This document shows positions 16,881-34,810 of a stretch of 64,000 bases of DNA, one piece after another. Origin of the DNA: Pyxidicoccus trucidator (GTDB taxonomy: Bacteria > Myxococcota > Myxococcia > Myxococcales > Myxococcaceae); NCBI RefSeq assembly GCF_010894435.1, contig NZ_JAAIXZ010000007.1, positions 467,339 through 531,338 of the forward strand. Direction: 5' to 3'. Numbering within the stretch: the first letter of the stretch is position 1; every line of letters begins with the position of its first letter. A model generated the notes under the pieces. The model was not told the DNA's origin. It searched no databases and was given only the letters and a program-made list of their open reading frames with translations. The position numbers and the translations under genes were made by a program.

Positions 16881-18521
<1,641 letters not shown>

Positions 18522-18619: not shown

Positions 18620-19594
18620 TCAGCGACGCGGCGTGAAGGTGGGCCGGTTGAGGAAGCCGGCGAGGCGGGCGGCCCGGAAGCTGGGGTCCTTCTTGTCCGG
18701 CGGGAGGATGGTGACGCCCATGCCGATGGGCCCCAGCCGCTTCTGGGCCTCGGGGTCCAGCTTGAAGTTCACATCCATGGCCGGCTCGCTGTACTCCAGC
18801 CGCTTGCCCAGCTTCAGCGTGCCGGTGGCCAGGGCCTCCAGGTCGTCGCTCTTGAGGCGCAGCGTCTGCACGGTGCCCAGCCCCTTCTCGAACTGGATGC
18901 GCCCGGTGAGCGCGCCCAGCGCGATTCGCGGCAGGTCCACGGCCATCGCCTGCCCGCCGCCCATGGGGAGGGAGGCCTTGCCGCCCTTGATGACCAGCCC
19001 CTGCGAGTCCAGCGTCAGCTCGCCGTCCGCCTGGGACAGGTCCGCGTCCGGGCCCTTGCCCTTGGGCAGCGTCAGCGCGAGGGTGCCGTTCAGCTCACCC
19101 TCCATGTCCAGGCCGGTGAAGGCCGGCAGGTTGCCGCCGGAGGCCTGGAGGCCGTCCGCCTCCACGCGCACCTTCACGTCGCCCAGCCCGCCCACGGCCG
19201 CGCTCAGCGTGCCGCCCATGGCGCTCGCGCGCACGGCCACGCCCGGCGGGAAGAGGGTGGGGCGCACCGCCACGGAGTCGAGCAGCACCGGCTCGCCCAG
19301 TTCCAGCGCGCCCGGCACGTTGCCCTCGCCGGTGGCCAGGGCCGCAATCACCTCGGCACTCAGCGGCTGGGCCGGCTTGCTCACGCGCACCTGGGTGGCG
19401 GTGATGCCCGCCAGCCCCGGCCGCAGCGAGCCGATGCGCACGGCGAGCCCCGCCTGGGCCGCCTCCGTCACGAGCCGCGAGCGGATGGCGTCGTACGGGA
19501 AGGTGACGAACAGGCCGAGGATGAAGGCCACCACCGCGAACGCGGCGTAGCCGAGGAAGAGCTTCCAGCGGGCGGGCTTGGTGTCAGGAGGCAT
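18620..19594 (-). CDS. gspN: type II secretion protein GspN
   Basis: This is a 324-residue protein with one N-terminal membrane segment (LFLGYAAFAVVAFILGLFV). The rest is a beta-rich periplasmic region typical of delta-proteobacterial GspN, which resembles AsmA/DUF748 folds (VRIGSLRPGLAGITATQVRV, MDVNFKLDPEAQKRLGPIG). It is the last gene of the operon, 3 bases after gspM. GspN is an accessory inner-membrane component of unclear role. The identification rests on position and the fold-like sequence pattern. Confidence 0.8.
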   Translation of the reverse strand: MPPDTKPARWKLFLGYAAFAVVAFILGLFVTFPYDAIRSRLVTEAAQAGLAVRIGSLRPGLAGITATQVRVSKPAQPLSAEVIAALATGEGNVPGALELGEPVLLDSVAVRPTLFPPGVAVRASAMGGTLSAAVGGLGDVKVRVEADGLQASGGNLPAFTGLDMEGELNGTLALTLPKGKGPDADLSQADGELTLDSQGLVIKGGKASLPMGGGQAMAVDLPRIALGALTGRIQFEKGLGTVQTLRLKSDDLEALATGTLKLGKRLEYSEPAMDVNFKLDPEAQKRLGPIGMGVTILPPDKKDPSFRAARLAGFLNRPTFTPRR

Positions 19595-19597
19595 GGC

Positions 19598-20155
19598 TTA
19601 TTGCTTCATCCGGTAGGTGGCGACGGTGGTCCACGCCGTCAGCGTGTCCGAGGCGCTCCTCGGCTCGATGCGCAGGTACTTCACCTTCACCACCCCCGGC
19701 CCGCTCTCCACCGTGGTGAGGAAGTCCGTCAGCTTGCGCAGGTCCACGTCCGTGAAGGTCAGCTCCACGGAGCTCTCGATGATTTTACCGTCCCCCACGC
19801 CCAGCTCGCCCTTGGGCGTCATGTTGGGCACCTGGAGGCCGGCCGCCGTGGCCTTGTCCTCGATGTAGCTGATGAGCTGCACGTCGCTGGACGACAGCTG
19901 CTGCTCCACCGACTGCCGCGCCGCCTGCGCCTCGCGGTAGCTGGCCGCCAGCGCCTGCACCTCCTGCAGCTTCGCCAGCTTGTCCTGCGTGCGCTTGCGG
20001 TAGCCGGACGCGCTGTTGGCGAACGTCACGACGACGGCGAAGACGATGAACGCCAGCAGCGCCGCGCCGGCGATGGACACCATCCGCCGCTCACGGTCAC
20101 TCAGCCGCTCGAACCACGTCGTCACCGGTGCGAAGACTTCCTGGATCCTGGCCAT
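19598..20155 (-). CDS. gspM: type II secretion protein GspM
   Basis: This is a 185-residue protein with a short cytoplasmic start (TTWFERLSDRERRMV), one membrane helix (about residues 25-48), then a coiled stretch and a ferredoxin-like periplasmic domain (SSVELTFTDVDLRKLTDFL). The size and layout match GspM, which pairs with GspL in the inner-membrane platform. The start at 20155 lies 2 bases after the gspL stop; the longer frame upstream overlaps gspL and is not protein-like. Confidence 0.88.
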   Translation of the reverse strand: MARIQEVFAPVTTWFERLSDRERRMVSIAGAALLAFIVFAVVVTFANSASGYRKRTQDKLAKLQEVQALAASYREAQAARQSVEQQLSSSDVQLISYIEDKATAAGLQVPNMTPKGELGVGDGKIIESSVELTFTDVDLRKLTDFLTTVESGPGVVKVKYLRIEPRSASDTLTAWTTVATYRMKQ

Positions 20156-20157
20156 GA

Positions 20158-21765
20158 CTAGCTCTCCCCGCCCTGCGTCCCCGGGCACTGCACCTGGACG
20201 TCCAGGCGGAAGGACACCTTGTTGCCGTCCCGCGTCCGCTCCACTTTGCCCTGCCGCACGTCCTTGAAGCACGCGTGGCCCTTGAGCGCGTTGGACAGCG
20301 TGTCCACCTGCTTCGACGAGTCCGTCTCACCCTGGAGGATGACGCGGTCCAGGTCGATTTGAATCCGGTCGAACTTCACCGGCACGTCCTCCGGCACCCG
20401 CTGCGTGACTTCCGCCAGCAGATTCACCGCCGTCAGCTTGGGCAGCGCCGCCGCCGGGCTCTCCACGCCCTTGAGCATGCTGAGCGCGCGGTTGTAGTCC
20501 TTCTCGCACTTGCCGAGGATGCGCTGCGTGGTGTCACACAGCACGGCGTCCACCTGCGCCTCGCGGCGCGACAGCACCGAGTTGCGCACCACGCCGTAGG
20601 CGATGAAGAGCAGCAGGAGCGTGGCCGCGAACGAGGCCAGCAACCCCAGCTTGTCCTTCATGTAGTCGAAGTCACCCTTGAAGGAGAGGTCACCCCGGCG
20701 GAAGTTGAAGCGCGGCGCCCTGGCGCCCGTCGCGTTGCCCCGCAGCGCCAGCGAGTACGCCTGCACGGCCGCCGGCTGCACCGCCGCGGGAATCGCCTCC
20801 GCCGCGTCCGCGGGCAGCGCCAGCAGCCGCACCGGCAGGTTCAAGTCACGGGAGAGCTGCTCGGCCAGCCCGGGCATGCGCGCGGTGCCGCCGCTCAGCA
20901 CCACCGAGCCCACCTGCTGGCGGGTGCGGGCGGTGAAGGCCTTGAGGGTGGGGCGCAGCTCGCGCAGCACCGGCTGCAGGCCCCGCACGAAGGCCCCCGC
21001 CGCGCGCTCCGCGTCCGGGCCCTGCGCCGCGCTGGCCATGGCCCCGTGCTGCTCCTTCCAGTGGTGCGCCTCCGCCAGCGACGTCTGGAACTCGGTGGCC
21101 AGCGCCTTGCTCAAGTCCCGCCCGCCGCCCGCGAAGGTGCGGGTGAACGTCACGCCCAGGCCCGGCTTGCCGAAGGACACCGAGGTGCGCTCGTGGCCGA
21201 TGTCCACCAGCGCCACCGCGCCGCCCTCGCCCGTGCCCTCGAAGAGGCCCGGCGACTGCTGGAACAGGTTCTGGTAGGCGAGGCCGGGGTGGGTGACGAT
21301 GCGCGGGTCCAGCTTGAGGTCCGCCAGCAGCGCCAGCAGCGACTGCAGCTCCTCCTTGCGCACCACGCCCACCAGCAAGTCGCTGGCCTTGTCCTTGCTG
21401 CCCTCCACATCCTTCAGGCCGACGACCTGGTAGTCGTAGACGGCGTCGGAGAGGTCGAAGGGCAGCTGGCTGCCAATCTCGAAGGGCAGCGTCGCTTCAA
21501 TGCGCTTGCCGTCGGAGAACGGCAGGCTCAGCGCGTGCGTGGTGAGCGACGGGCCGGGCAGGGCGATGACGACCTGGTCCAGGTTTCCGGGCGGGAGCTG
21601 GCCGAGCAGCTCCTGCACCGCGGCGCGCAGGGTGTCCGCGCGCTCGCCCTCGGGCGCGCGCCGGACCTCGGCGAACCCCTTGACGGTGTGTCCCTTCGTC
21701 TTGGACTCCAGCACCACGCCCTTCACGGAGTGGCTGCCAAGGTCCAGGCCAAGAATGCGGGCCAT
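20158..21765 (-). CDS. gspL: type II secretion protein GspL (PilM-like)
   Basis: This is a 535-residue protein. The N-terminal 340 residues form an actin-like ATPase fold of the PilM/FtsA type (LGLDLGSHSVKGVVLE, ALVDIGHERTSVSFG, SVVLSGGTARMPGL). A membrane helix follows at about residues 375-395 (GLLASFAATLLLLFIAYGVV), then a coiled segment and a small periplasmic domain. In GspL the cytoplasmic actin-like part recruits the GspE ATPase to the membrane. It starts 1 base after the gspK stop. Confidence 0.9.
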   Translation of the reverse strand: MARILGLDLGSHSVKGVVLESKTKGHTVKGFAEVRRAPEGERADTLRAAVQELLGQLPPGNLDQVVIALPGPSLTTHALSLPFSDGKRIEATLPFEIGSQLPFDLSDAVYDYQVVGLKDVEGSKDKASDLLVGVVRKEELQSLLALLADLKLDPRIVTHPGLAYQNLFQQSPGLFEGTGEGGAVALVDIGHERTSVSFGKPGLGVTFTRTFAGGGRDLSKALATEFQTSLAEAHHWKEQHGAMASAAQGPDAERAAGAFVRGLQPVLRELRPTLKAFTARTRQQVGSVVLSGGTARMPGLAEQLSRDLNLPVRLLALPADAAEAIPAAVQPAAVQAYSLALRGNATGARAPRFNFRRGDLSFKGDFDYMKDKLGLLASFAATLLLLFIAYGVVRNSVLSRREAQVDAVLCDTTQRILGKCEKDYNRALSMLKGVESPAAALPKLTAVNLLAEVTQRVPEDVPVKFDRIQIDLDRVILQGETDSSKQVDTLSNALKGHACFKDVRQGKVERTRDGNKVSFRLDVQVQCPGTQGGES

Positions 21766-21766
21766 A

Positions 21767-23134
21767 CTATTCCTCTCTCCAGTACAGGAGCCTGCCCAGC
21801 GTGTCGTCCAGCCGGACCACGGCGGTGAGCGTCTTCTGCACGCTGCCCGCTTCTCCCACGGATTTGATGGTGAACGTCTGACTCTTGTCGCCCACGAGCC
21901 GGTTGCCCGCCACGTTGGCCTTCACGGCCGGGTTGATGGGGATGCCGGCTGACTCGACCACGGCGACGAAGTCCTGCACGGACATGCCGAAGAAGCTGAA
22001 CATCTTCGCCGAGCGGACGCGGGTGATGACCTCGTTGAGGAACACCGGGTCGTGCAGCCGCGGGTCCGGCCGCGTCTGGTCCGCCACCGACATGATGGCC
22101 AGCCCCAGCATCACCGGGTCGTCCGTGTTGATGTTGGGCCGCCGGTTGATGTCCGGGTACACGGTGAGCCTGTCGCGGAACGCGGACATGAACTGGTCGT
22201 TCACCCCGTGCACCCGGTACAGCTCGTCCACGCTGTCGAAGCGCGCGTTCTTCGGCTCGTAGGTCGGGTCATAGCGGCTGTACGCGGCGCCCTCATCCGA
22301 GAAGCCGGAGGGCAGGGGGTTCGTTGCGTCCACCAGGTTGATGGCCGAGCCCGTCTCGTCGTCGTCCGCCCAGTCCTTCAGCGCCAGCACCACGTCCTGC
22401 GGCGTGCTGCGCACCTTGTTGGCGTCGTCGCGCTCCCAGAGGAACTCGAAGCGCTTGTCGTTGAACATGTCCAGCATGCGCAGCATGGTGGGGTACGCGT
22501 CGCCGGCGCCGGCCATCAGGCGGTGGACGTTGAGCTTCTCCTCCTCGTCGGAGATGGAGGCCAGGAAGCAGCCCTCGAAGCCGCCGAAGGAGCGTTGCGT
22601 CATCTGCGACGCCACCTCCATCGCCGCCGGGTCCTTCTCGGCGTCGTCCATCTTGAAGTCCTTGTCGTCCGCCGGCTCCATCGCCGCCGTCTCGCCGTCC
22701 GCGCCCTCGCTCTTCACCAGCCCCTTGAGCATGTGGCAGTCCACACGCGCCATCTTGTAGAGCTGGATGTTGAGCGACGACGGCTGCGGCGTCTGCTGGC
22801 CACCCTGCTGCGCCTGCGGGCCCAGGAACTGCGAGAGGAGGGCCGCCGGGTTGGGGATGGGCGTCTGGTCCACCTGCTTCTGGAAGCGCAGCAGCAGCCG
22901 GGACAGGGCAATGCCCGAGCGCGCCAGGTAGTACGCGCGCACCTCGTCCCGCTGGTTGGCCGCCAGCTGCAGGTCCACCCGGCTGTTGTAGGCGAAGTCG
23001 GTGGCAATCACCGTGAGGATGGCGATGGACACCACCGCGATGATGAGCGCCACGCCACGCGAGCGCCGCTCACGGCGGGCCGCGGGGGACGCGCTCCTAC
23101 GGCGGCGGGACTTCTGTTGGAAGAAGCTGGGCAT
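21767..23134 (-). CDS. gspK: minor pseudopilin GspK
   Basis: This is a 455-residue protein. A basic leader (RRERRSRG) is followed by VALIIAVVSIAILTVIATDF, the hydrophobic N-helix of type IV pilin-like proteins. It lacks Glu at position +5, as GspK usually does. The large globular domain is also typical, with YLARSGIALSRLLLRFQ and later SVDELYRVHGVNDQFMSAF. GspK caps the pseudopilus tip together with GspI and GspJ. The ATG overlaps the gspJ stop by one base, showing coupled translation. The start at 23134 was chosen for this overlap and the leader. Confidence 0.9.
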   Translation of the reverse strand: MPSFFQQKSRRRRSASPAARRERRSRGVALIIAVVSIAILTVIATDFAYNSRVDLQLAANQRDEVRAYYLARSGIALSRLLLRFQKQVDQTPIPNPAALLSQFLGPQAQQGGQQTPQPSSLNIQLYKMARVDCHMLKGLVKSEGADGETAAMEPADDKDFKMDDAEKDPAAMEVASQMTQRSFGGFEGCFLASISDEEEKLNVHRLMAGAGDAYPTMLRMLDMFNDKRFEFLWERDDANKVRSTPQDVVLALKDWADDDETGSAINLVDATNPLPSGFSDEGAAYSRYDPTYEPKNARFDSVDELYRVHGVNDQFMSAFRDRLTVYPDINRRPNINTDDPVMLGLAIMSVADQTRPDPRLHDPVFLNEVITRVRSAKMFSFFGMSVQDFVAVVESAGIPINPAVKANVAGNRLVGDKSQTFTIKSVGEAGSVQKTLTAVVRLDDTLGRLLYWREE

Positions 23135-23805
23135 CAGTACCTCGGCAGCTCCGTGTTGAGCATGATGCGGGCCTGGGTGGTGTACTTCGCTTCCTTGCCC
23201 GTCTCGTCCACGGCCGTGACGGTGACGCGCACCCGCGTGGGCAGCAGGGCCTTGAGCTCCGTGCGCCGGGTGTCCCACTCGTCGTCCCACTCCTTCTTCT
23301 CCGAGTTCCAGTACGCGAACTCCAGCCCCTTGACGCCCTCGAAGAGCACGTCCGTGTTGCCGCCCCGGTCCATGCGGTCATCCACGTTGGGGTTGACGCG
23401 GCGCTTGAGGTCCTGCCGCCCCTTCGCCTCCCGGTCCGTGGACGCCTCCACGAAGTACTCCACCACCGCCTGGTCGGACTCCTTCACGTCCGTGTACAGG
23501 CGCTGGTGTGAGAACGTGGTGAAGAGCAGCTTGTCCCGCTCGCCGACGAAGTTGGTGGGCCGGTCGTTCTGATCTCGGAAGCGCTTCAGGTCATACCTGT
23601 CGCTGACGTACGCGGAGCCAATCTCGCGCGCCATGCGGTTCATGGCCACGCGCACCTGGCGGTAGCGGTCCGCGTCCGCCTCCACCGTCTCCTTGGCCGT
23701 CAGGCCCGTCTGGAAGGCCATGGCCACCACGGTGCCCATCAGCGCCGTAATCGCGACGGCCACCATGACCTCCATCAGCGTGAAGCCGCGAGCGTGGCGC
23801 CTCAT
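23134..23805 (-). CDS. gspJ: minor pseudopilin GspJ
   Basis: This 223-residue protein begins with the prepilin motif RHARGFTLMEVMVAVAITAL (cleavage after Gly, conserved Glu at +5). The body contains RMAREIGSAYVSDRYD and FYVEASTD-like segments typical of GspJ. It forms part of the pseudopilus tip. The ATG overlaps the gspI stop by one base, and its own stop overlaps gspK. Confidence 0.9.
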   Translation of the reverse strand: MRRHARGFTLMEVMVAVAITALMGTVVAMAFQTGLTAKETVEADADRYRQVRVAMNRMAREIGSAYVSDRYDLKRFRDQNDRPTNFVGERDKLLFTTFSHQRLYTDVKESDQAVVEYFVEASTDREAKGRQDLKRRVNPNVDDRMDRGGNTDVLFEGVKGLEFAYWNSEKKEWDDEWDTRRTELKALLPTRVRVTVTAVDETGKEAKYTTQARIMLNTELPRY

Positions 23806-24725
23806 CACTGGGTCCTCCTCTGGAAGCCGGGGATCTTGATGTTGCCCAGCGGGTTGTTGCCCTGGCCGCCCGGGGGGACGATGCCGCCCGTGCCCGGCTG
23901 CTGGGCGCCGCCGTTGCGCTGGTTGTTGAAGTCGGACTGGCGCATGAGCGGCATGCGCGTCTGCGGGTCCAGCATGGTGCCGTTGGGGCCGGGCATCGGG
24001 TTGGCCACGATGAGGCCCGTGTTCGGGTTCACCCACTGGTTCTCCTGGCCCGGGGGCTGCTGGCCCTGCGACTGGGCGAAGGCCGCGCCGCCGTTGCGGT
24101 CCGAGCCCGGCCCCAGAGACACCACGTGCGTCACCAGGTCGATGCTCTCCAACTGCGTGCCCTCCATCCAGAAGACCGTGAGGTGCACCTCGCGCACCGT
24201 CTGGGTGATTTGCTGAATCATCTGCGTGAACATGGGCTGCGCCATGCCCATGGCCGCGCCGCCCATTCCACCCAGGCCCGAGGGCTGGGGACCGCCGGAC
24301 GCGCCGTCCTTGCCACCGCCGCCGCCCGCGCCGCCGCCGAAGAGGCTGGCGATGCCGCCCATGGGGTCTCCATCCCCGCTATCGCCGATGGGCAGGTTGA
24401 AGATGGCGCCGATGAGCTGGTCCGGCGTCACGCCCTCCGTCTTGGGGGCGATGATGCGCGCGCGCCACTTGAACTGGGGCCAGCCGTCGTCGGAGAAGTC
24501 ACCGGACTCCTCGTCGTCGTCGTTGGAGAAGCCGTCGTCGTAGAGCTTCTGCTCCAGGTCCGTCATCTTCGAGCGGGCCAGCAGCGACGCCACGGTGAGG
24601 CGCTTGGTGTAGACGTGGTTGGACACCGCGCCCGCGTTCAGGTCGAAGATGGCCATGAGCGCGAGCCCGAGGATGGCGAGCGCCACCACCACCTCCAGCA
24701 GGGTGAAGCCCTGGTTGCGTCTCAT
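23805..24725 (-). CDS. gspI: minor pseudopilin GspI, unusually long
   Basis: This 306-residue protein starts MRRNQGFTLLEVVVALAILG, a clean prepilin signal. GspI proteins are usually about 120-150 residues. Here a Gly/Met-rich insertion sits near residues 125-175 (GGGAGGGGGKDGASGGPQPS, then MGGAAMGMAQPM). A tail of about 90 residues rich in Gly, Pro, Asn and Gln follows the core strand VHLTVFWMEG. The frame is maintained, with normal codon use throughout. It overlaps gspH by 4 bases (ATGA). The extra parts suggest a lineage-specific tip structure. Confidence 0.85.
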   Translation of the reverse strand: MRRNQGFTLLEVVVALAILGLALMAIFDLNAGAVSNHVYTKRLTVASLLARSKMTDLEQKLYDDGFSNDDDEESGDFSDDGWPQFKWRARIIAPKTEGVTPDQLIGAIFNLPIGDSGDGDPMGGIASLFGGGAGGGGGKDGASGGPQPSGLGGMGGAAMGMAQPMFTQMIQQITQTVREVHLTVFWMEGTQLESIDLVTHVVSLGPGSDRNGGAAFAQSQGQQPPGQENQWVNPNTGLIVANPMPGPNGTMLDPQTRMPLMRQSDFNNQRNGGAQQPGTGGIVPPGGQGNNPLGNIKIPGFQRRTQ

Positions 24726-25441
24726 TTCGGCACCTCCAGCTCTTCGGCCACCACCTGCACCTTGCCGGTGAGGGGTGACACGTCCAGCGTCCAGACGTTG
24801 TCCCCCTGCTTGACGTACACGTGGGCCTTCTCCGTGTAGCCCTGCGGGAAGAAGTAGAGGTAGGCCACGCCGCTCTCCACCGGCTCGCGCTGGTGGCGCG
24901 TCCACACCGACACCTTCACGTCCCCCGGCAGCTCGCGCGAGGGCACCTCTTCCGAGGTGTACGACGAGAAGCGGGCCGCGTTCTCCACGCGCTGCTTCTC
25001 ACCTTCCATCAGCTCCGTGGCGGTGGGCGCGTCCCCGCCGGACACGAGGTAGTTGCGGCGCGTCTCGCCGTTGGCGCCCGTGCCTCCGCTGGCGCGCGCG
25101 TTCCGCTCGCGCTCGCTGTTCTCGTCGCGCAGCGCGGTGTCCCGGTCCCTCGACGTCGTCACCGCGCCCTCCGCGCACTCGGCGTGGTAGCGGGTGGGCT
25201 CCTCGCTCTTCGGGTCGGGAATCTCGAACACCAGGCGGCACGTCTTGCCGCGCAGCGCGGCCGAGTCGTACAGCGAGCGGATGAGGCCCGCCAGCTCGCC
25301 CGCGGAGCCCTTCGCCTTGGCGCCGGTGATGGAGCCGATGCCCATCACCGCCGCGGAGAACAGCATCGCGACGATGATGATGGCGATGGAGATTTCGATG
25401 AGCGTCAGGCCGCGCTGGGCGCGGCGGCGGGCGGGCGTCAT
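24722..25441 (-). CDS. gspH: minor pseudopilin GspH
   Basis: This 239-residue protein has the prepilin signal RRAQRGLTLIEISIAIIIVA near the N-terminus. A globular domain follows, containing GLIRSLYDSAALRGKTCRLV, the usual GspH/FimT helix-strand region. A charged central insertion (RDRDTALRDENSERERNAR) and the end DVSPLTGKVQVVAEELEVPK make it somewhat longer than the typical 150-190 residues. Its start overlaps the stop of the preceding gene by 4 bases. Confidence 0.88.
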   Translation of the reverse strand: MTPARRRAQRGLTLIEISIAIIIVAMLFSAAVMGIGSITGAKAKGSAGELAGLIRSLYDSAALRGKTCRLVFEIPDPKSEEPTRYHAECAEGAVTTSRDRDTALRDENSERERNARASGGTGANGETRRNYLVSGGDAPTATELMEGEKQRVENAARFSSYTSEEVPSRELPGDVKVSVWTRHQREPVESGVAYLYFFPQGYTEKAHVYVKQGDNVWTLDVSPLTGKVQVVAEELEVPK

Positions 25442-25887
25442 GGCTGCTCCCAGTGGGCGGCCAGCGCTCCGCCGCTGCTCAGGTCCGCGTCCGGGCCACT
25501 GCCGCCCGCCTTGCCGTCCGCCCCGTAGGAGACGACGGCGCCCGTCTTGCCGTCCATCCAGTACACGTACGGGTGGCCCCAGGGGTCCACCGGCACCGCG
25601 TCCAGCAGGCGGGCCTGGATGAGCGGGGTGAAGCCCTCTTCCTTCGAGGGGAAGCGCCCCATCAGCCGGTGGTGCGACTTGAAGAACCCCTCCAGCTTGC
25701 GGATCTCCGCCCGCGCCCGGCGCTGCTCGGTCGTGAGCGACGCGTCATGCGTCAGCCACACGAGGAAGAAGGCCAGACCCGTGGCGACCAGGAAGACGAG
25801 GGCCAGGATGAACCGCCCCACGTTCCGGGGGCGGTCCGTCCCCTCCTGCGAGGGCATCGGGGTGGTGAGGGAGGCGTGCTCGTTCAT
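25438..25887 (-). CDS. GspG-like pseudopilin-domain protein without a prepilin signal
   Basis: This is a 149-residue protein whose C-terminal half matches the GspG major-pseudopilin domain: FPSKEEGFTPLIQARLLDAV, DPWGHPYVY, then VVSYGADGKAGGSGPDADLS. The calcium-binding loop of GspG is recognisable. The N-terminus is different: a cytoplasmic stretch of about 30 residues, a membrane helix (FILALVFLVATGLAFFLVW), and no GFTLIE-type cleavage and methylation motif. It is therefore unlikely to be processed by the prepilin peptidase. It lies between gspG and gspH and overlaps gspH by 4 bases. It could be a platform-anchored modulator of pilus assembly. Confidence 0.85.
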   Translation of the reverse strand: MNEHASLTTPMPSQEGTDRPRNVGRFILALVFLVATGLAFFLVWLTHDASLTTEQRRARAEIRKLEGFFKSHHRLMGRFPSKEEGFTPLIQARLLDAVPVDPWGHPYVYWMDGKTGAVVSYGADGKAGGSGPDADLSSGGALAAHWEQP

Positions 25888-25926
25888 ACCCAAGGCCCTA
25901 TGCAACACGCGGGGTGCGCTACTTCT

Positions 25927-26349
25927 TCACTTGTTGTTGGCGGCGGCGCCGTCCGCGGAGGAGATGTCCGCGTCGTTGCCCTCGCCACCGGCGGTGCCGT
26001 CCGCGCCGTAGGAGATGATGACGGGCTTGCCGCCCTCGTTGATGTACACGTAGTCGTTGTTCCAGGGGTCCTTGGGCATCTGCTCCAGGGCCTGGGTCTC
26101 CACGAGCGCGTTCAGGCCCGAGGCGGTGTCGGGGTACTTCCCCTTCTTCGTGTAGTAGAGCTTCATCGCGCCCTGGATGCTCTTGATGTCCAGCGAGGCG
26201 CGGTCTCTACGGGCGGCCTCCAGCTGCGGAATCACCGCCACGCCCACGGCCGCCGCGATGAGGCCGAGGATGGTGATGACCACCATGATTTCAATCAGGG
26301 TCATGCCGCGGCTCTTGCGGCGCTGCTTCCTCTGGGTCTTCTGGCTCAT
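25927..26349 (-). CDS. gspG: major pseudopilin GspG
   Basis: This 140-residue protein starts with a basic leader followed by the cleavage motif RGMTLIEIMVVITILG. The conserved GspG core follows, with KGKYPDTASGLNALVE, MPKDPWNNDYVYINEG and ISYGADGTAGGEGNDADIS. It is the main subunit of the secretion pseudopilus. A purine-rich AGGAACGA site precedes the start. Confidence 0.95.
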   Translation of the reverse strand: MSQKTQRKQRRKSRGMTLIEIMVVITILGLIAAAVGVAVIPQLEAARRDRASLDIKSIQGAMKLYYTKKGKYPDTASGLNALVETQALEQMPKDPWNNDYVYINEGGKPVIISYGADGTAGGEGNDADISSADGAAANNK

Positions 26350-26410
26350 GTCTCGTTCCTAGCTCGGGTGACTTTCTGGCAGTCCACCCGGTTGAGTTCG
26401 TGTCGTCCTG

Positions 26411-26563
26411 TCAGGGCGTCCGGGCCCCGTCCGCCACGCCCGCCTGCGGGCGCTGGGACTGGGGACCGTACAGCCGGGCCCCCACCGTCAGCAGCGCCGC
26501 CGCCACGGCAATCATGGCGGCCAGGGTGACGCGCTGAATCCAGCGGTCCATGGTGTCGTTCAT
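26411..26563 (-). CDS. 50-aa single-span membrane protein in the gsp operon
   Basis: This short frame encodes MNDTMDRWIQRVTLAAMIAV followed by a hydrophobic Ala/Leu stretch and a polar Pro/Gln/Arg tail. It has one predicted inner-membrane helix at about residues 10-30. It lies 14 bases after the gspF stop and 61 before gspG, with a GAGGAG ribosome-binding site that overlaps the end of gspF. Third positions are G/C-rich. Strand, spacing and signal support a real gene. The function is unknown; a small platform subunit is plausible. Confidence 0.65.
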   Translation of the reverse strand: MNDTMDRWIQRVTLAAMIAVAAALLTVGARLYGPQSQRPQAGVADGARTP

Positions 26564-26577
26564 CGTCGCGTCACTCC

Positions 26578-27834
26578 TCACCGGATGGCCGAGTTCACCT
26601 GGAGGATCGGCAGCAGGATGGAGAGCGCTACGAATGCAATCACCGCGCCCATCACCACGATGAGCAGGGGCTCGAGGAGCGAGGTGAGGGCGCCGATGCG
26701 CACATTCACCTGCGTCTCGTAGTTGTCCGCCACGTTGGTGAGCATGTCCTCCAACTGGCCGGAGCGCTCACCGATGGCGACCATGTGGTACACGAGCGGA
26801 GGGAACTCCCCCGAGCGCTTGAGCGGGGTGGCGATGCTCTCGCCCTCGCGGATGGAGTCGCGGGCCTTCTCCACCACCTCCGCGAGCACCGTGTTCGTCA
26901 TCACCGCCTTGACGATGTCCATGGCCGCCAGCAGCGGGACGCCGCTCTTGAGCAGCGTGGCCAGCGTGCGGGCGAAGCGGGAGATGGACAGCAGGCGCAC
27001 CAGGCTGCCGACGACGGGGGCCCTCAGGGTGATGCGGTCCCACTTCGGCTTGCCCTTGGGGCTCTTCGTCCAGCGCATGAACAGCCAGACGCCCAGCGCC
27101 ATCAGCGGCACGGCGACGAACCACCAGTTCTGGAAGAAGTTGCTGGTGGCGATGAGGATGCGCGTGCTCAGGGGCAGCGTGGCCTTCATCGTCTCGAAGA
27201 TCTTCGTCACCTTCGGCACCACGAAGACCATGAGGGCCACGAGGATGCCGCCGCCCACCACCATCATGATGGCGGGGTAGAGCATGGTGCTGAGAATCTT
27301 CTGCTGCAGCCGGGCCTGGTTCTCCGTGAAGTCCGCCAGGCGCGTGAGCACCGCGTCCAGCGCGCCCGAGGCCTCGCCCGCGCGCACCATGTTCACGTAG
27401 ATGCTGGGGAAGATTTTGGGGTGCTGGCCCAGGGCGTCCGCGAGGGTGGAGCCCTCGTTGACGCGCTGCTTGATGTCGGAGAGGGCGCGCTTGAAGCGCT
27501 CCTTCTCCACCTGGTCCACCAGCGCGCTGAGCGACTCCACCAGGGTGACGCCGGCGTGCAGCAGCGTGGACAGCTGCCGGGTGAAGATGGCGACGTCGTC
27601 GGTGTTGACGCGGCCCCGGCCCAGCTTGCGCAGGTCGATGTCGCGCGCCACCAGCGACGCGTTGGCGCCCTTGGACACGGCGGCGCGGCTGCCCTCCGCC
27701 TGTGCCAGCACGTCCGTGAGGAAGATGCCGTCGCCGCGCAGCTTGGAGCGCAGCGTCTTGGGGGAGTCCGCCTCGAGCAGGCCCTTGATGGACTTGCCCG
27801 CGGAGTTGATACCTCTGTACTCGAAGACCGGCAT
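26578..27834 (-). CDS. gspF: type II secretion inner-membrane protein GspF
   Basis: This is a 418-residue polytopic protein with the two tandem GspF/PilC domains. The first contains FTRQLSTLLHAGVTLVESL and the second contains RFARTLATLLKSGVPLLAAM. Three membrane helices lie between and after them. YRGINSAGKSIKGLLEADSP at the N-terminus is also characteristic. GspF is the platform core that works with GspE to assemble the pseudopilus. Confidence 0.95.
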   Translation of the reverse strand: MPVFEYRGINSAGKSIKGLLEADSPKTLRSKLRGDGIFLTDVLAQAEGSRAAVSKGANASLVARDIDLRKLGRGRVNTDDVAIFTRQLSTLLHAGVTLVESLSALVDQVEKERFKRALSDIKQRVNEGSTLADALGQHPKIFPSIYVNMVRAGEASGALDAVLTRLADFTENQARLQQKILSTMLYPAIMMVVGGGILVALMVFVVPKVTKIFETMKATLPLSTRILIATSNFFQNWWFVAVPLMALGVWLFMRWTKSPKGKPKWDRITLRAPVVGSLVRLLSISRFARTLATLLKSGVPLLAAMDIVKAVMTNTVLAEVVEKARDSIREGESIATPLKRSGEFPPLVYHMVAIGERSGQLEDMLTNVADNYETQVNVRIGALTSLLEPLLIVVMGAVIAFVALSILLPILQVNSAIR

Positions 27835-27872
27835 GGCTCAGACCCCGGCCCCTCCCAGGGAGGAGCTGTCGG

Positions 27873-29684
27873 TTACATGTCCTCCTGGGTGATGCTCAGC
27901 ACTTCCGCGATGGTCGTCTCGCCCAGGGAAATCTTCCGCGCGCCGTCGTCCAGCAGCGACGTCATGCCCTTGGACGCTGCGGAGCGCTTGATGGTGGACG
28001 CGTCCACGTTCTTCAGCACGAGCTGGCGGATGTCGTCATCCACGGGGAGGAACTCGTAGATGCCGGTGCGGCCCCGGTAGCCGTTGCGGTTGCACGACGG
28101 GCAGCCGGTGGCCTTGTAGATGCGGTCCGTCCCGTAGCGCGCCTTGAAGGAGGCCAGCGTGTGGCTGAGCTCCTTGAGCTCCGCGTCCGTGGGCACGTAG
28201 GCCACGCGGCAGTCCGGGCACACCCGGCGCACGAGGCGCTGGGCGAGGATGCCGGTGAGCGACGAGGCCACGAGGAAGGGCTCCACGCCCATGTCCACCA
28301 GTCGCGTCACCGCGCCCGCGGCGTCGTTGGTGTGCACCGTGGACAGCACGAGGTGGCCCGTCAGCGACGCCTGGATGGCGATTTCCGCCGTCTCCTTGTC
28401 GCGGATTTCGCCGACCATGATGACGTCCGGGTCCTGGCGGAGGAACGAGCGCAGCCCCTGCGCGAAGGTGAGGCCAATCTTCGGGTTGATGGCCATCTGG
28501 CCAATGCCCTTGAGCTGGTACTCGACCGGGTCCTCGACGGTGAGGATGTTGAGGTCCGGCGTGTTGATTTTCGACAGGGCGCCGTAGAGCGTCGTCGTCT
28601 TGCCGGAGCCCGTGGGGCCGGTGACGAGGATGATGCCGTGCGAGCGCTTGATGACGGCTTCCATGGAATGGAGCGTCGCCTGGCTCATGCCGATTTCGGC
28701 CAGGTCCAGCAGCGTCGCCGTCTTGTCGAGCAGACGCATGACGATGCGCTCGCCGAAGGACGTGGGGATGGTGGACAGACGGATGTCGATGTCGCGGCCG
28801 GCCAGCTTGATGCGGATGCGGCCGTCCTGCGGCAGGCGCTTCTCCGCGATGTTGAGCTGCCCCATGACCTTCACGCGGCTGACAATCGCGTTCTGGTAGC
28901 GCTTGGGCGGCTTGATGACCTCCTGCAGCACACCGTCCACGCGGAAGCGCACCAGCAGCTCGCGCTCCATCGGCTCGATGTGGATATCGCTCGCGCGCTC
29001 CTTGGCGGCGCGGAACAGCACGGAGTTCACCAGCCGGATGACGGGTGCCTCGTCATTCACGTCGAGGAGGTCCGTGGGCTCCTCCAGCTCGTGGGCGATG
29101 GAGTCCAGGTCCGTGGTCTCCATCTCGTCCACCAGCTGCTCGGCCTCGTTGACCGAGCGGTCATAGACGCTGTTGATGGCGTCGGTGACGGTGCTCGCCA
29201 GGGCGATGCGCTGGCTGATGCTCTGGCCCAGCAGGAGCCGCACATGGTCCAGCGCGGAGGTGTCCAGGGGGTCCGAGACGGCCACCGCCACGGCGTCCCC
29301 CTCCATGGACAGCGGGAGGATGTGGGCCTGCTTGGCGAAGTTGATGGGGATGCGCTTGACCAGCTCCGCATCCACCTCTTCGGTGAAGATGCGGGCCAGG
29401 TAGGGCAGGTCCAGCTGGTGGCCCAGCGCCTTGGCCACGTCTTCTTCGCTGACCGCCTTCATCCCCACCAGCACCTCGCCCAGGCGCTGGCCCTTCTCGG
29501 CCTGGACGGCGAGGGCCTCCTGGATCTTCTCCTCGGTGAGCGAGGGGACGAGCGCGCGGAGGATTTCCCCCAGCGGCCGGCCACAGAGGAAGGCCTGGCC
29601 GTGCGAGACGACCTGGGTGGCGTCATTGCGCGCGGGGGCAACCGCGGTGGCGGTGGTCAGGGTGGGGTCGGCGGTCACGTTCAT
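27873..29684 (-). CDS. gspE: type II secretion ATPase GspE
   Basis: This is a 603-residue protein. The N-terminal MshEN-type domains include KIQEALAVQAEKGQRLGEVL. A RecA-like ATPase follows, with Walker A GPTGSGKTTTLYGAL (about residue 355), an Asp box and Walker B DPDVIMVGEIRD, and a His-containing TGHLVLSTVHTNDA. A four-Cys zinc module (CPDC...CPSC, about residues 490-530) is present, as in typical GspE. It powers pseudopilus assembly from the cytoplasm. The ATG overlaps the gspD stop by 4 bases. Confidence 0.96.
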   Translation of the reverse strand: MNVTADPTLTTATAVAPARNDATQVVSHGQAFLCGRPLGEILRALVPSLTEEKIQEALAVQAEKGQRLGEVLVGMKAVSEEDVAKALGHQLDLPYLARIFTEEVDAELVKRIPINFAKQAHILPLSMEGDAVAVAVSDPLDTSALDHVRLLLGQSISQRIALASTVTDAINSVYDRSVNEAEQLVDEMETTDLDSIAHELEEPTDLLDVNDEAPVIRLVNSVLFRAAKERASDIHIEPMERELLVRFRVDGVLQEVIKPPKRYQNAIVSRVKVMGQLNIAEKRLPQDGRIRIKLAGRDIDIRLSTIPTSFGERIVMRLLDKTATLLDLAEIGMSQATLHSMEAVIKRSHGIILVTGPTGSGKTTTLYGALSKINTPDLNILTVEDPVEYQLKGIGQMAINPKIGLTFAQGLRSFLRQDPDVIMVGEIRDKETAEIAIQASLTGHLVLSTVHTNDAAGAVTRLVDMGVEPFLVASSLTGILAQRLVRRVCPDCRVAYVPTDAELKELSHTLASFKARYGTDRIYKATGCPSCNRNGYRGRTGIYEFLPVDDDIRQLVLKNVDASTIKRSAASKGMTSLLDDGARKISLGETTIAEVLSITQEDM

Positions 29685-32272
29685 GGGCTCTGTTCACCAA
29701 CGTCCGGCTGGATGCGCAGGTTCTCGGGGGAGACGTCCTCGGGAGCCGGAGGGCTCTCGGGGACGGGCGCCTCGGGCCGCGGGGCCGGCACTGGTTCATC
29801 GGAACCCCCCGGAGGCGGCGCGACTTCCCGCACCTCGGGTTCACCCTGGGGCGCGCCCGGCGTGGGAGCCGGAGCAGGGAGCGTGCGCCCGTTCGCCGGG
29901 CTGGCGGGGGCGATGATGCGCTCGCCGGGCATGCCCGGGCCGCCGTTCTCCGCGCGCTGCTGCTCCTTCATCACCGCCTGGTTCATGCGCGACAGGGGGC
30001 CGGGCTTGCGGCTGAAGTCCACCGCCACGTCGTAGCCGGGCACCTGGCCGTAGAACTGCTCCACGAACTGCTGCCGCTCCTTCATCTTCCGCTCGAAGAT
30101 GATGCGGAAGTCCTCGGGGCCCCGGATGATGTAGGGCGTCAGGAAGAGCAGCAGGTTCGTCTTCGTCTTGCGGCGCGACGTCTCGCGGAAGAGGTGGCCG
30201 ATGATGGGGATGTCACCCAGCACCGGCACCTTGGAGACGGACTCCAGGGTGCGGTCCTGCATGATGCCGCCCAGCACCACCGTCTCCTGGTCCTTGGCGA
30301 TGACCGTCGTCTTCGCGCTGCGGCGGGCCGTGGTGGGGCCGAGCACCGGGTCCGTGGAGGCAATCTCCTCCGTCTGCTCGGTGATGACGAGGCGGATGTA
30401 GTCGCTCTCGTTGATCTGCGGCTTGACGGTGAGCTTCAGCTCCACGTTCTGGCGCGTAATCGGCGCGTAGAGCGAGCTGAGGCCGCCCAGCCCACCGAGG
30501 ATGGAGGGGATGCCGCCGGGGGTGCCGGTGGTGCCGCCGCCCACCGTGGAGCCCAGCGACGAGGGGTTGAAGCCAGACTGGAAGGGCACATTCTGCCCCA
30601 CCGTGATTTCCGCCTCCTCGTTGTCGCTGGTGAGGATGTGCGGGGTGGAGAGGACGTTGACGTCCGAGCTCTGCTGCATGGCGTGCAGCACCACGCCGAA
30701 GGCGGGGATGTCCAGGCCCAGCTTCTCCAGCGCGGGGATGACGGGGCCCTGGAGGCCGGCGAGGAAGCCGCCGAACTGCGCGAGGCTGCCCAGCGACAGC
30801 GACGGGGGCAGGCCCTGGCCGGTGTTGTTGGTGCCGATGAGGCCCGGCACCGCGCCGTCGTCCGTCTTCAGGCTGAAGCCGCTGTGGAGGTTCACGCCGA
30901 ACTCGGCGTTCCGGTCCAGGTTGACCTCCATGATGACGGCCTCCACGAAGACCTGGCGGCGCGGCGTGTCCAGCTGCTGGATGATTTGAACGATGTTCTT
31001 GTAGTCGGCCGCGCTGGCGACGATGACCAGCGAGTTGGTGCCCTTGTCGGCCGAAATCTTCACCTCGCCGCTGAACAGCTCCGCGGCCTGGGTGGCGCCG
31101 CCGCCACGGGGGATGCCCTGGGGCGCCTGCGGGGAGGGGTTGCGCGGGCGGTTGGCGGTGCCCTGCGCCAGCGACTGGAGCGTGCTGGCCAGCTCCTCCG
31201 CGTTGGCGTTCTCCAGCGGGTAGACGTTGATGCGGCCGCCCGTGCTGGTGGGGATGTCCAGCTGCCCGACAATCTCCTGGATGCGGTCGAAGGCCGCGGG
31301 GCTGGCGACGATGATGAGCTTGTTGGTGCGCTCGTCCGGGATGATCTGCGACAGCGTCACCGGCCCGCTGGAGCCCTCCTGGCCGGCCTGCGCGGCCTGG
31401 GCGGCGGCAATCTCACCCGGCGAGGCGCCGGGGGACACGTTCTGCGAGAAGCCCCCGGGGCGCTGGCCGGGGCGGGCGCCCTTGGACTCGAAGAGGCGCT
31501 GCACCGTGGTGGCCACGTCCTGGGCCGCCGCGTACTGAATCTGGATGACGCGCAGCTCGTCGCTGGCGGCGCGGTTGTCCAGCTGGTTGATGATGCGCTC
31601 CAGGCGGTGGATGTTGGAGCCCACGTCGTTGACGATGATGGTGTCCGGCGGGTACGGAATCGTGTCGCCGTCCTTGGACACCAGCTGCTGCAGCACGCCG
31701 CGCAGCGGCTCGACTTCCACGTTCTTGATGCGGAACAGCTTCGTCACCATCTGCTCGTTGGTGGTGTACGGCGCACCCTCGTCGACGATGGTGGGGATGG
31801 GGTTCTGCTTCGCCGAGCGCTTGTCGACAATCTTCAGGAAGCGGCCGTGCTGGTAGACGGACAGGCCGTTGGCGTCGAGCGCGGCGAGGAAGGCGGAGTA
31901 GAAGGCGTCCGCGTTGACCTCCACGCGGCCATTCTCCGGGCCGATGATGGAGATCTTCCCGCGCACGTTCTCCGGGAGGATGAAGGTGCGGCAGGTGGCG
32001 TCCGCCACCGTCTGGACCAGCTTCTCGATCTCCACCTTGTCGAAGTAGATGCCGTAGCGGGCATTGCGCCGGGCCTCCTCGCACGTGGGCGTGCGGCGGG
32101 GACCCTGGTTGGCCTCCTCGGCGCCACCGGCGCCGGAGGTCTGCGGGGTGATCGTCCGATCACCCGGCGTGGCGGGCGAGGTGGTGCCGGAAGGAGGGGG
32201 GCGGCGCTGGGCCTGCGCGGGAACGGCGAGCGCGAGGCACAGGCAGAGCATCCAGGACGGGAGCGTCTTCAT
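29681..32272 (-). CDS. gspD: type II secretion outer-membrane secretin GspD
   Basis: This 863-residue protein has a signal peptide (LCLALAVPAQAQ). The N0 domain lies at about residues 70-150 (VRGKISIIGPENGRVEV) and N1-N3 repeats follow (YAAAQDVATTVQRLFESKGA, VYPLENANAEELASTLQSLA). The secretin beta-barrel begins near residue 435 (VFVEAVIMEVNLDRNAEFGV) and ends with VPVLGDIPIIGHLFR at about residue 686. A Pro/Ala-rich tail of about 70 residues closes the protein. Gly-rich gaps within the N domains are longer than in enterobacterial GspD. It forms the outer-membrane channel. Confidence 0.96.
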   Translation of the reverse strand: MKTLPSWMLCLCLALAVPAQAQRRPPPSGTTSPATPGDRTITPQTSGAGGAEEANQGPRRTPTCEEARRNARYGIYFDKVEIEKLVQTVADATCRTFILPENVRGKISIIGPENGRVEVNADAFYSAFLAALDANGLSVYQHGRFLKIVDKRSAKQNPIPTIVDEGAPYTTNEQMVTKLFRIKNVEVEPLRGVLQQLVSKDGDTIPYPPDTIIVNDVGSNIHRLERIINQLDNRAASDELRVIQIQYAAAQDVATTVQRLFESKGARPGQRPGGFSQNVSPGASPGEIAAAQAAQAGQEGSSGPVTLSQIIPDERTNKLIIVASPAAFDRIQEIVGQLDIPTSTGGRINVYPLENANAEELASTLQSLAQGTANRPRNPSPQAPQGIPRGGGATQAAELFSGEVKISADKGTNSLVIVASAADYKNIVQIIQQLDTPRRQVFVEAVIMEVNLDRNAEFGVNLHSGFSLKTDDGAVPGLIGTNNTGQGLPPSLSLGSLAQFGGFLAGLQGPVIPALEKLGLDIPAFGVVLHAMQQSSDVNVLSTPHILTSDNEEAEITVGQNVPFQSGFNPSSLGSTVGGGTTGTPGGIPSILGGLGGLSSLYAPITRQNVELKLTVKPQINESDYIRLVITEQTEEIASTDPVLGPTTARRSAKTTVIAKDQETVVLGGIMQDRTLESVSKVPVLGDIPIIGHLFRETSRRKTKTNLLLFLTPYIIRGPEDFRIIFERKMKERQQFVEQFYGQVPGYDVAVDFSRKPGPLSRMNQAVMKEQQRAENGGPGMPGERIIAPASPANGRTLPAPAPTPGAPQGEPEVREVAPPPGGSDEPVPAPRPEAPVPESPPAPEDVSPENLRIQPDVGEQSP

Positions 32273-32296: not shown

Positions 32297-33202
32297 TTAA
32301 CGGACGTTGTACGACTTCTTGATCGGCGCTCCGTTGCGCTCGATCTCGATCTCGATGCGGGATGCGTCCTTCATCTTCGAATAGACCTCCAGCGCCTTCT
32401 CCGGGCTGTTGAGGTCGAATCCGTTGATGCGGCGGATGACGTCGCCGTTCTGGACGCCAATCTTGGAGTAGATGGAGTCCGGGCGGATGGAGAAGAGCTT
32501 GAACCCCACCGCCTGACCATCCTTGAAGGCGGGGACGATGCGGGCCTGCATGGCCACGTCATTGAGGTTGTTGAGCGTCTTGTCGATCTCCGCGCGCGGC
32601 ACCTCGTACTCGTTGTCGTTGACGGCGCGGATGCCGCTGCCGTTGGGCGGCGGGGCGGTGTTGGCCTGGGCCACGGGCGGGGTGGGCGGCACGAAGGCGC
32701 CGTCACCCGGCTGCCCGTCGATGAACTCGCGGCGGCCGTTGTTGAGGATGATGACGCGCTCGCGCTCGATTTCCTGCACGGTGGCGCCCTGGAGGGCGTT
32801 GCCAACCATGTAGGTCTGCGAGCGCTGCGTCACCATGTCCTGGATGGAGGCGAAGGACCAGTCGGCGTTGCTCGCGACGAGGGTGCCCAGCAGCTTCACC
32901 CTCAGGCCGCTCTTCACCGGCGCCGCGTTGGGGTCCGCCTGGACCAGCTCCGGCTCGACGACCGCCTTCTCGGGCTCGGGAATCTTGATGCCGGTGAGCC
33001 GCGACAGCCGGTTCATGTCCAGCATGGCCAGCGTCGACTCCGACCGGCGTGGCTGCGTGGGCGCGCGCGTCGCCGTCCCGGAGGGAACCGGGGCGATGGC
33101 GGACTCGACGAACAGGTTCACCGTGCGCGCCGCCAGCAGGGCCACGAGCAGGATGAACAGCAGGTTCACCGTCCAGAAGTATTTTCGAAAGAAGAGTTCC
33201 AT
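32297..33202 (-). CDS. gspC: type II secretion protein GspC
   Basis: This is a 301-residue protein with an N-terminal membrane helix (FWTVNLLFILLVALLAAR), a Pro-rich linker, and the homology region that contacts GspD (VKLLGTLVASNADWSFASIQ, IILNNGRREFID). A C-terminal PDZ domain is present (PDSIYSKIGVQNGDVIRRIN). It links the inner-membrane platform to the secretin. It is the first gene of the operon, with a sigma-54 promoter just upstream. The start at 33202 precedes the membrane helix; upstream extension is not protein-like. Confidence 0.93.
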   Translation of the reverse strand: MELFFRKYFWTVNLLFILLVALLAARTVNLFVESAIAPVPSGTATRAPTQPRRSESTLAMLDMNRLSRLTGIKIPEPEKAVVEPELVQADPNAAPVKSGLRVKLLGTLVASNADWSFASIQDMVTQRSQTYMVGNALQGATVQEIERERVIILNNGRREFIDGQPGDGAFVPPTPPVAQANTAPPPNGSGIRAVNDNEYEVPRAEIDKTLNNLNDVAMQARIVPAFKDGQAVGFKLFSIRPDSIYSKIGVQNGDVIRRINGFDLNSPEKALEVYSKMKDASRIEIEIERNGAPIKKSYNVR

Positions 33203-33234
33203 CACGCTTCCGGTAGTAAGCAGGGCCTTCGGTG

Positions 33235-33250
33235 AGCAAGTCAGGTGCCA
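33235..33250 (-). promoter_or_regulatory. sigma-54 promoter of the gsp operon
   Basis: On the minus strand the sequence reads TGGCACCTGACTTGCT. This is an exact -24 box (TGGCAC) and -12 box (TTGCT) with the required 5-base spacing. The expected transcription start is near 33224, about 22 bases before the gspC ATG. An NtrC-type activator gene lies immediately upstream. Prediction from consensus only. Confidence 0.8.
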
Positions 33251-33295
33251 CCGTGCAGCCCGGCGGGCAATCCAGGCCCAACGGGCCAAGGGCGC

Positions 33296-33312
33296 GGAAT
33301 TATTCCGGAATA
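33296..33312. promoter_or_regulatory. candidate enhancer site for the sigma-54 promoter
   Basis: Two perfect palindromes overlap here: GGAATTATTCC (33296-33306) and TATTCCGGAATA (33301-33312). They lie roughly 75-85 bases upstream of the predicted start and form one of the few AT-rich patches in the region. That is a normal place for an upstream activating sequence bound by a sigma-54 activator. Confidence 0.5.

Positions 33313-33397: not shown

Positions 33398-34810
<1,413 letters not shown>

Follow-up and report, generated by a model that had tools for sequence, protein, structure and literature searches.

A predicted sigma-54 promoter with paired upstream enhancer candidates ahead of the type II secretion operon of Pyxidicoccus trucidator and its relatives

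Type II secretion exports enzymes used in feeding, and in the DNA studied here the operon for this machine is flanked by two regulator genes, which raises the question of what switches the operon on and through which sites. The window, meaning the whole 64,000-nucleotide stretch that was analysed, comes from a 12.67-Mb genome of the Myxococcus/Pyxidicoccus group; the closest named relative among the GspC matches compared is Pyxidicoccus caerfyrddinensis (93% in GspC). A preliminary description of this DNA had proposed a sigma-54 promoter before gspC, with palindromes further up and an activator gene at each end of the operon. The genes concerned are the following.

32297-33202, minus strand: gspC, which opens the type II secretion operon (Pfam T2SSC, E 3.8e-13)
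18620-32272, minus strand: remaining genes of the operon, gspD to gspN, two of them gspG-like (lettered from a reading of the translations)
33398-34810, minus strand: NtrC-type response-regulator EBP, likely activator, Nla4 by gene order (Response_reg, Sigma54_activat and HTH_8)
16881-18521, minus strand: EBP with tandem FHA domains at the operon's 3' end, a competing or second activator

Both regulators named in that description, the NtrC-type activator directly upstream and the tandem-FHA activator at the other end, proved to be real sigma-54-type activators: each has a Pfam Sigma54_activat match (E 1.1e-72 for 33398-34810, E 5.7e-71 for the tandem-FHA EBP) and each contains GAFTGA. The upstream protein combines a receiver, an AAA+ domain with GAFTGA and a Fis-type HTH, which is the make-up of an NtrC-type activator. 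Matches to gspC are present in 95 of 96 family genomes, and the gene order of the operon is the same in relatives, as far as the compared stretches reach. Two consecutive gspG-like pseudopilin genes lie within the operon (window 25438-26349, minus strand).

The region between the EBP gene and gspC contains four elements.

33250-33235, minus strand: -24/-12 sigma-54 promoter (predicted) of the gspC operon, TGGCACCTGACTTGCT, 11/11 match, predicted +1 at about 33224
33312-33281, minus strand: middle element, TATTCCGGAATAATTCC...CTTGGCCCGT, holding the palindromes noted earlier; possibly a second regulator's site or an ECF-type promoter, GGAAT-N17/18-CGT
33367-33355, minus strand: UAS1, proximal enhancer candidate, TGACAATTTGTCC, centre at about -137
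33400-33388, minus strand: UAS2, distal enhancer candidate, TGACAGGGCGTCA, centred at about -170 and sharing bases with the EBP gene's stop codon

The TGGCAC-N5-TTGCT motif claimed ahead of gspC is present in full, 32 bases before the ATG at 33202, and counting from the GC of the -12 box gives a predicted start at 33224, in agreement with the position given in the preliminary description. We tabulated 76 gspC upstream regions, from the 95 family genomes with a gspC match; the other 19 genomes were left out, and seven of these (G005, G013, G020, G023, G024, G049, G080) show the composite element described below before gspC. Taking the best match within 160 bp, 71 of the 76 upstreams (the window's own included) score 11/11, four score 10/11 and one 9/11, while the best score in 291 control windows at least 500 bp upstream of gspC was 6-8 in 286, 9 in four and 11 in one. 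The GG and GC are invariant in all 41 distinct family promoters. Searched bare in the 12.67-Mb genome, the exact motif gives nine matches against 4+4 for the reversed control, which is near chance, so that the case for the promoter is carried by its conservation and position; three of the nine matches directly precede gspC-type genes. Two other matches in this genome have features of their own: one (L001, G000:C1:110577) has upstream TGACA-N4-TGTCA repeats, with a spacing of 4 rather than 3, and one (L008, G000:C31:51604) lies 88 bp before a gene whose product, judged by eye, resembles an RpoH-type sigma factor.

In other families of the order, for which 19 loci were selected from a larger set of matches, a -24/-12 element of at least 10/11 lies within 60 bp of the gspC start in 14. 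Among the remaining five, two (L163, L172) have the EBP upstream in the stretch; L172 has a 9/11 match at -33, and in L163, L168 and L169 a 9/11 match lies further up and is preceded, at about 100 bp, by a TGACA site. In L165 neither a 10/11 match within 60 bp nor a weaker match further up was found. Had relatives retained the operon and lost the boxes, this would have spoken against the promoter; a match of at least 10/11 is retained by 75 of 76 family upstreams and, counting matches within 60 bp, by 14 of the 19 loci from outside the family. The prediction that gspC has a real, conserved sigma-54 promoter is well supported by these comparisons, and in the cell the promoter would presumably depend on sigma-54. 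In eight loci of deep genera (L090-L096, L098) the -12 box lies just 13-16 bp before the aligned gspC GTG start; either the transcript there would have almost no leader, or translation would truly begin further in.

Alignment of the gap between the EBP gene and gspC revealed conserved blocks beyond the -24/-12 boxes. The two sites that they define, UAS1 and UAS2, are 33 bp apart with the consensus TGACA-N3-TGTCA, and were made into the pattern TG[AC]CA-N4-G[TG]C. Within 160 bp before the -24 box, this pattern occurs at least once in 76 of 76 family upstreams and at least twice in 65, with a single site in the other 11. The reversed pattern was found in 0 of 76 upstreams, and the pattern itself in 0 of 73 regions 500-660 bp upstream; since the pattern was drawn from the same sequences, these controls weigh more than the 76 of 76. 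The site profiles were likewise built on fixed-pattern matches, in which the fixed letters are invariant by construction. The paired sites of the 65 upstreams are spaced by 33 bp in 49, 31 bp in 12 and 32 bp in four, about three helical turns. Between the proximal site and the -24 box lie 102-104 bp in 60 of 76 upstreams and 50-51 bp in 10, values that differ by about five turns; the remaining six distances are 42, 82, 82, 91, 93 and 113 bp. Outside the family, the pattern lies within 260 bp in 17 of the 19 order-level loci (reversed, 0 of 19). In family f3, presumably Anaeromyxobacter and its kin, four of five loci have the site TGCCAAATTGGCA, with a second copy 40 bp up. The region therefore has the arrangement of an EBP-dependent promoter, paired inverted-repeat sites about 80-200 bp from the start and in helical phase.

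A composite of TGACA-N4-GTC, 92-122 bp and TGGC-N7-TTGC occurs three times in the 12.67-Mb genome (control 0), every time before a gspC-type gene: the gspC of the operon, a second full gspC paralog (51% identity, on contig C21) and a gene for a short GspC-like protein (on C33). A tblastn search (E 1e-4) with the other gsp proteins of the window gave no match in the 14 kb and 19 kb around the C21 and C33 copies, and so we call these genes orphan gspC. The C33 copy (L153 8605-9225) encodes a 206-aa GspC-like PDZ protein and has its own enhancer and -24/-12 boxes; directly downstream of it lies a gene of 2176 aa (L153 1578-8108) whose product, judged by eye, resembles a non-ribosomal peptide synthetase, with more NRPS-like sequence apparently on the other side. 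Across 92 family genomes, the composite with the full -24/-12 gave 69 matches in 63 genomes (controls 0), all 69 upstream of a gspC-type gene and on the same strand. The distance to the gene is within 41 bp for 66 matches and 42 bp, with a corrected start, for one (G071); the other two lie at 205 and 288 bp, each from a gspC-type gene that is covered only in part by the listed match.

Among 13 orphan gspC genes chosen for having an available upstream stretch, 12 carry the enhancer pattern there. In a set of 16 gspC paralog upstreams, five lack the -24/-12 by a strict test and seven (L101, L103-L106, L110, L111) lack the enhancer in the 700 bp tested; four of the seven genomes (G064, G068, G069, G079) have the composite at a more distant upstream position, ahead of a short gspC-like gene.

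A further target was found with the perfect TGACA-N3-TGTCA site and a shorter gap, which gave 24 matches in 19 of 92 genomes. Six of these are gspC and 12 lie before MXAN_2561-family genes; the others precede an MXAN_2561-like gene in G013, an MXAN_2562-family gene in G047 and another small protein in G031, and three further matches lie in G033, G051 and G095. By NCBIfam, the proteins belong to the MXAN_2561 family of MXYO-CTERM-anchored proteins (275.6 bits, cut-off 150) and to the MXAN_2562 family of outer-membrane barrels (213.1 bits, cut-off 100); Pfam gave no match for the two proteins. At the best 30 MXAN_2561 loci, the enhancer pattern is present in 29, mostly as TGACAATTTGGCA and about 97 bp before the promoter (reversed, 0), and a -24/-12-like element of at least 9/11 is also present in 29, mostly as TGGCCY-N4-CTTGCT. 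At 13 further loci the pattern is present in nine; of the four misses, three have TGACAATTTGACA or a similar sequence and one is truncated where its contig ends. The genome of the window has its own composite of this type at C11:372090-372202.

A looser composite, searched in 24 genomes, gave 52 matches (controls 0), which were sorted by comparing coordinates by eye into 22 at gspC, eight at orphan gspC, 21 at MXAN_2561 and one other; its gap range misses the C21 copy of the window's genome and the shorter gaps of G010 and G047. The sole match not placed before a gspC-type or MXAN_2561-type gene is G002:C1:1622255-1622360 (L248). In those upstreams of MXAN_2561 genes (L198-L227) that were inspected, a second site like TGCC[CT][AG]TTTGGC can be seen by eye about 31 bp after the first, which suggests that these promoters may also carry paired enhancers. 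MYXO-CTERM proteins have been reported, in the accessible text of the source, to reach the myxobacterial surface via type II secretion (PMC11980579), so that the machine and a probable client may stand under a common switch.

The adjacent EBP can be matched to a known regulator by gene order. In the accessible parts of two M. xanthus papers, nla4 is Mxan 2516 (PMC2875238) and gspD is MXAN2514 (PMC3222651), which makes the EBP at 33398-34810 the counterpart of Nla4 (MXAN_2516). M. xanthus AM003 (L043) has the EBP (95.5%) and gspC in the same order. Orthologs of the EBP were found in 14 of 15 other genomes checked, at 96% in G060 and at 76-81% in 13 deeper ones. In five of these 13 (G044, G010, G012, G047, G091) the gene is on the gspC contig, 2-11 kb upstream; in the other eight, which are fragmented assemblies, it and gspC are on different contigs. 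At the order level, the EBP lies upstream of gspC in the stretch in 14 of 19 loci and elsewhere in the genome in the other five. Linkage is therefore unproven or absent in eight of 13 deep-genus assemblies and five of 19 order-level loci. No EBP ortholog was found in G011 and G086, which both keep the enhancer; the G011 contig stops at the expected position of the gene, G086 lacks a gspC match as well, and assembly gaps are the likely cause of both absences. The EBP gene itself is preceded, at 32 bp, by GGGAACGCGGCTTGCA (window 34858-34843, minus strand; 9/11 against the -24/-12), and of eight named relatives, six reach a best score of 9 upstream of the EBP gene and the other two reach 8, one of them at another position. 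This element is perhaps a weak sigma-54 promoter of nla4 itself.

We weighed four other accounts of these elements. That the -24/-12 match is a chance one, with the operon read from another promoter only, would fit the near-control count of the bare motif (9 against 4+4), and it is barely credible when 75 of 76 family upstreams score at least 10/11 and 69 of 69 composites precede gspC-type genes; given the controls, we rejected a chance origin of the elements. The preliminary description had put forward the palindromes of the middle element as candidate sites of the activator and had proposed a search for them in orthologous loci. They do exist (GGAATTATTCC at 33296-33306, and TATTCCGGAATA as well), and they are kept in part: the perfect form occurs in 15 of 76 family upstreams and the core GAAT[AG]A in 46 of 76, the latter being the one point in favour of that role. 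The core is found in 0 of 13 orphan gspC, 1 of 30 MXAN_2561 and 1 of 15 deep-branching gspC upstreams, which places the middle element outside the conserved sigma-54 module, and the deep-branching upstreams still keep the -24/-12 and the TGACA sites. We therefore regard it as very unlikely that the activator binds the palindromes, which are probably not enhancers of the gspC promoter; the TGACA-N3-TGTCA sites, absent from the preliminary description, are better candidates. An IHF site in the middle element was rejected by eye, as the IHF consensus does not fit. The element may instead be a second promoter of ECF-sigma type, whose consensus has the shape GGAAT-N17/18-CGT, for basal or stress expression, with sigma-54 as one of two inputs. 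GAAT-N17/18-[CT]GT is present in 45 of 76 family upstreams, and a search for GGAAT, 14-20 bases and [CT]GT returned a spacer of 17 or 18 wherever it found one. Against this, a CTTGG within the spacer is also conserved, unlike in a plain ECF promoter, and the deep-branching gspC upstreams have the pattern in 4 of 15 and the core in 1 of 15. A second promoter here is a possibility worth keeping in mind, at clearly less than even chances, and is compatible with sigma-54 control of gspC.

The last account accepts the sigma-54 promoter and gives the TGACA sites to another EBP, either the tandem-FHA protein or a different one. The FHA EBP sits at the end of the operon in the window and has matches in 20 of 23 genomes checked, and two genomes with the site gave no match to the Nla4 ortholog. 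In addition, the recognition-helix stretch of the EBP is nearly invariant, which fits a nearly invariant site yet gives no co-variation: even at the f3 loci with TGCCAAATTGGCA, where co-variation was sought, none is evident and the helix has hardly changed. On the other side, G100, G133 and G140 keep the sites without an FHA EBP match at E <= 1e-130 (a strict limit; G140 is 89% complete), and in G108 and G119 the FHA EBP lies 3.1 and 0.3 Mb from gspC, with the Nla4 ortholog adjacent. We consider binding by another EBP unlikely, if much less so than the palindrome reading, and the tandem-FHA EBP appears to be a weaker candidate than the Nla4 ortholog. By association, not by proof, the NtrC-type activator beside gspC is the strongest candidate for the regulator; adjacency and conservation are what point to Nla4 as the binder of the TGACA sites. 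The linkage in deep genera rests on five of 13 genomes, which slightly lowers our confidence in the explanation that follows.

The elements, their conservation, their positions and their near-exclusive association with a few genes are established by computation. On this basis we think it probable that the gspC promoter is a sigma-54 promoter with two upstream enhancers bound by Nla4, that it is the main switch of the operon, and that its regulon is shared with orphan gspC genes and MXAN_2561. Most likely, Nla4, the response-regulator EBP encoded next door, would bind both TGACA-N3-TGTCA sites, which are separated by about three helical turns; once phosphorylated it would oligomerise, loop to the sigma-54 RNA polymerase at TGGCAC-N5-TTGCT and melt the promoter. 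The same pair of enhancer and promoter before the orphan gspC genes and the MXAN_2561 family gene (for a MYXO-CTERM surface protein), and in G047 alone also directly before the MXAN_2562-family outer-membrane barrel gene, would let a single activator induce the secretion machine along with alternative GspC subunits and a probable client. These genes would form a small Nla4-sigma-54 secretion regulon.

This would provide a candidate direct regulon for Nla4, an EBP with known mutant phenotypes, and the control of type II secretion becomes directly testable, since site, regulator and a small number of targets are now proposed. The orphan GspC proteins may have a role in the machine as well: their genes under the enhancer of the secretion operon hint at a substrate-facing subunit that may be exchangeable, which to our knowledge would be unusual for a type II system. 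More tentatively, and as a somewhat improbable extension, Nla4, known as an activator in starvation, development and the stringent response, may ancestrally be a dedicated secretion-and-surface switch with few direct targets, namely the operon, the orphan GspC paralogs and MXAN_2561. If so, orphan GspC proteins may be exchanged into the machine to serve as other subunits for substrate selection, and the growth and starvation phenotypes of Nla4 may be partly secondary to failed secretion and feeding.

For the comparison with published work, we take COG3031 to be GspC. The preliminary description held that type II secretion is rarely described as sigma-54 dependent; "rarely" stands, and "undescribed" would be wrong, going by the accessible text of three papers (PMC12316311, PMC9765219, PMC9743648). 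According to the first of these, type II secretion COGs, COG3031 included, are enriched in the predicted sigma-54 regulon of Myxococcia, so that sigma-54 control of type II secretion in this group has been predicted in print before. That work resembles ours in having type II secretion among the predicted targets, and differs in that its main text contains neither "Nla" nor "upstream activat"; a link to orphan gspC or MXAN_2561 was not found in the accessible passages. In the accessible literature on MXAN_2503, 2504, 2514, 2515 and 2516 we found no account of gspC control. In the literature searched, whose scope excluded most subscription papers, we found no paper joining Nla4 and type II secretion, and none on MXAN_2561/2562; the kind of promoter is known, and the enhancer, the compact regulon and the link to Nla4 were not found. 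For Nla4 itself, the accessible text of two papers states that nla4 mutants grow poorly, with a supposed link to (p)ppGpp (PMC7910581), and that Nla4 activates relA and nla6 (PMC4048283).

Three described systems are close to the one proposed here, each known to us from the accessible part of its source. The T2SS-2 of Plesiomonas shigelloides is RpoN-dependent, sigma-54 positively regulating the type II secretion cluster; it belongs to another phylum, and no activator or site is established for it there (PMC9743648). NmpR of M. xanthus is an NtrC-like response regulator with paired inverted-repeat enhancers before a -24/-12 promoter, and differs in its sites (GCGCA-N5-TGCGC) and in its genes, which concern oxygen utilisation and pilR (PMC11841059). 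The Nla28 regulon of M. xanthus shares the operon and the sigma-54/EBP logic: the Nla28 DNA-binding domain shifts a fragment of the internal type II secretion promoter MXAN2511 in vitro, this promoter serves 10 genes and reads GGGCGCG-N4-TTGCA, and the half-site is CT(C/G)CG(C/G)AG; the published sites are those at MXAN2511, with gspC not mentioned in the accessible text (PMC9765219). In the window, GGGCGCGGTGATTGCA (26650-26635, minus strand), near the end of gspF, fits the form of this Nla28-dependent MXAN2511 element (PMC9765219). In contrast, the promoter described here is that of gspC at the head of the operon; it has TGACA-N3-TGTCA sites and a perfect -24/-12, and its likely EBP is another one, Nla4.
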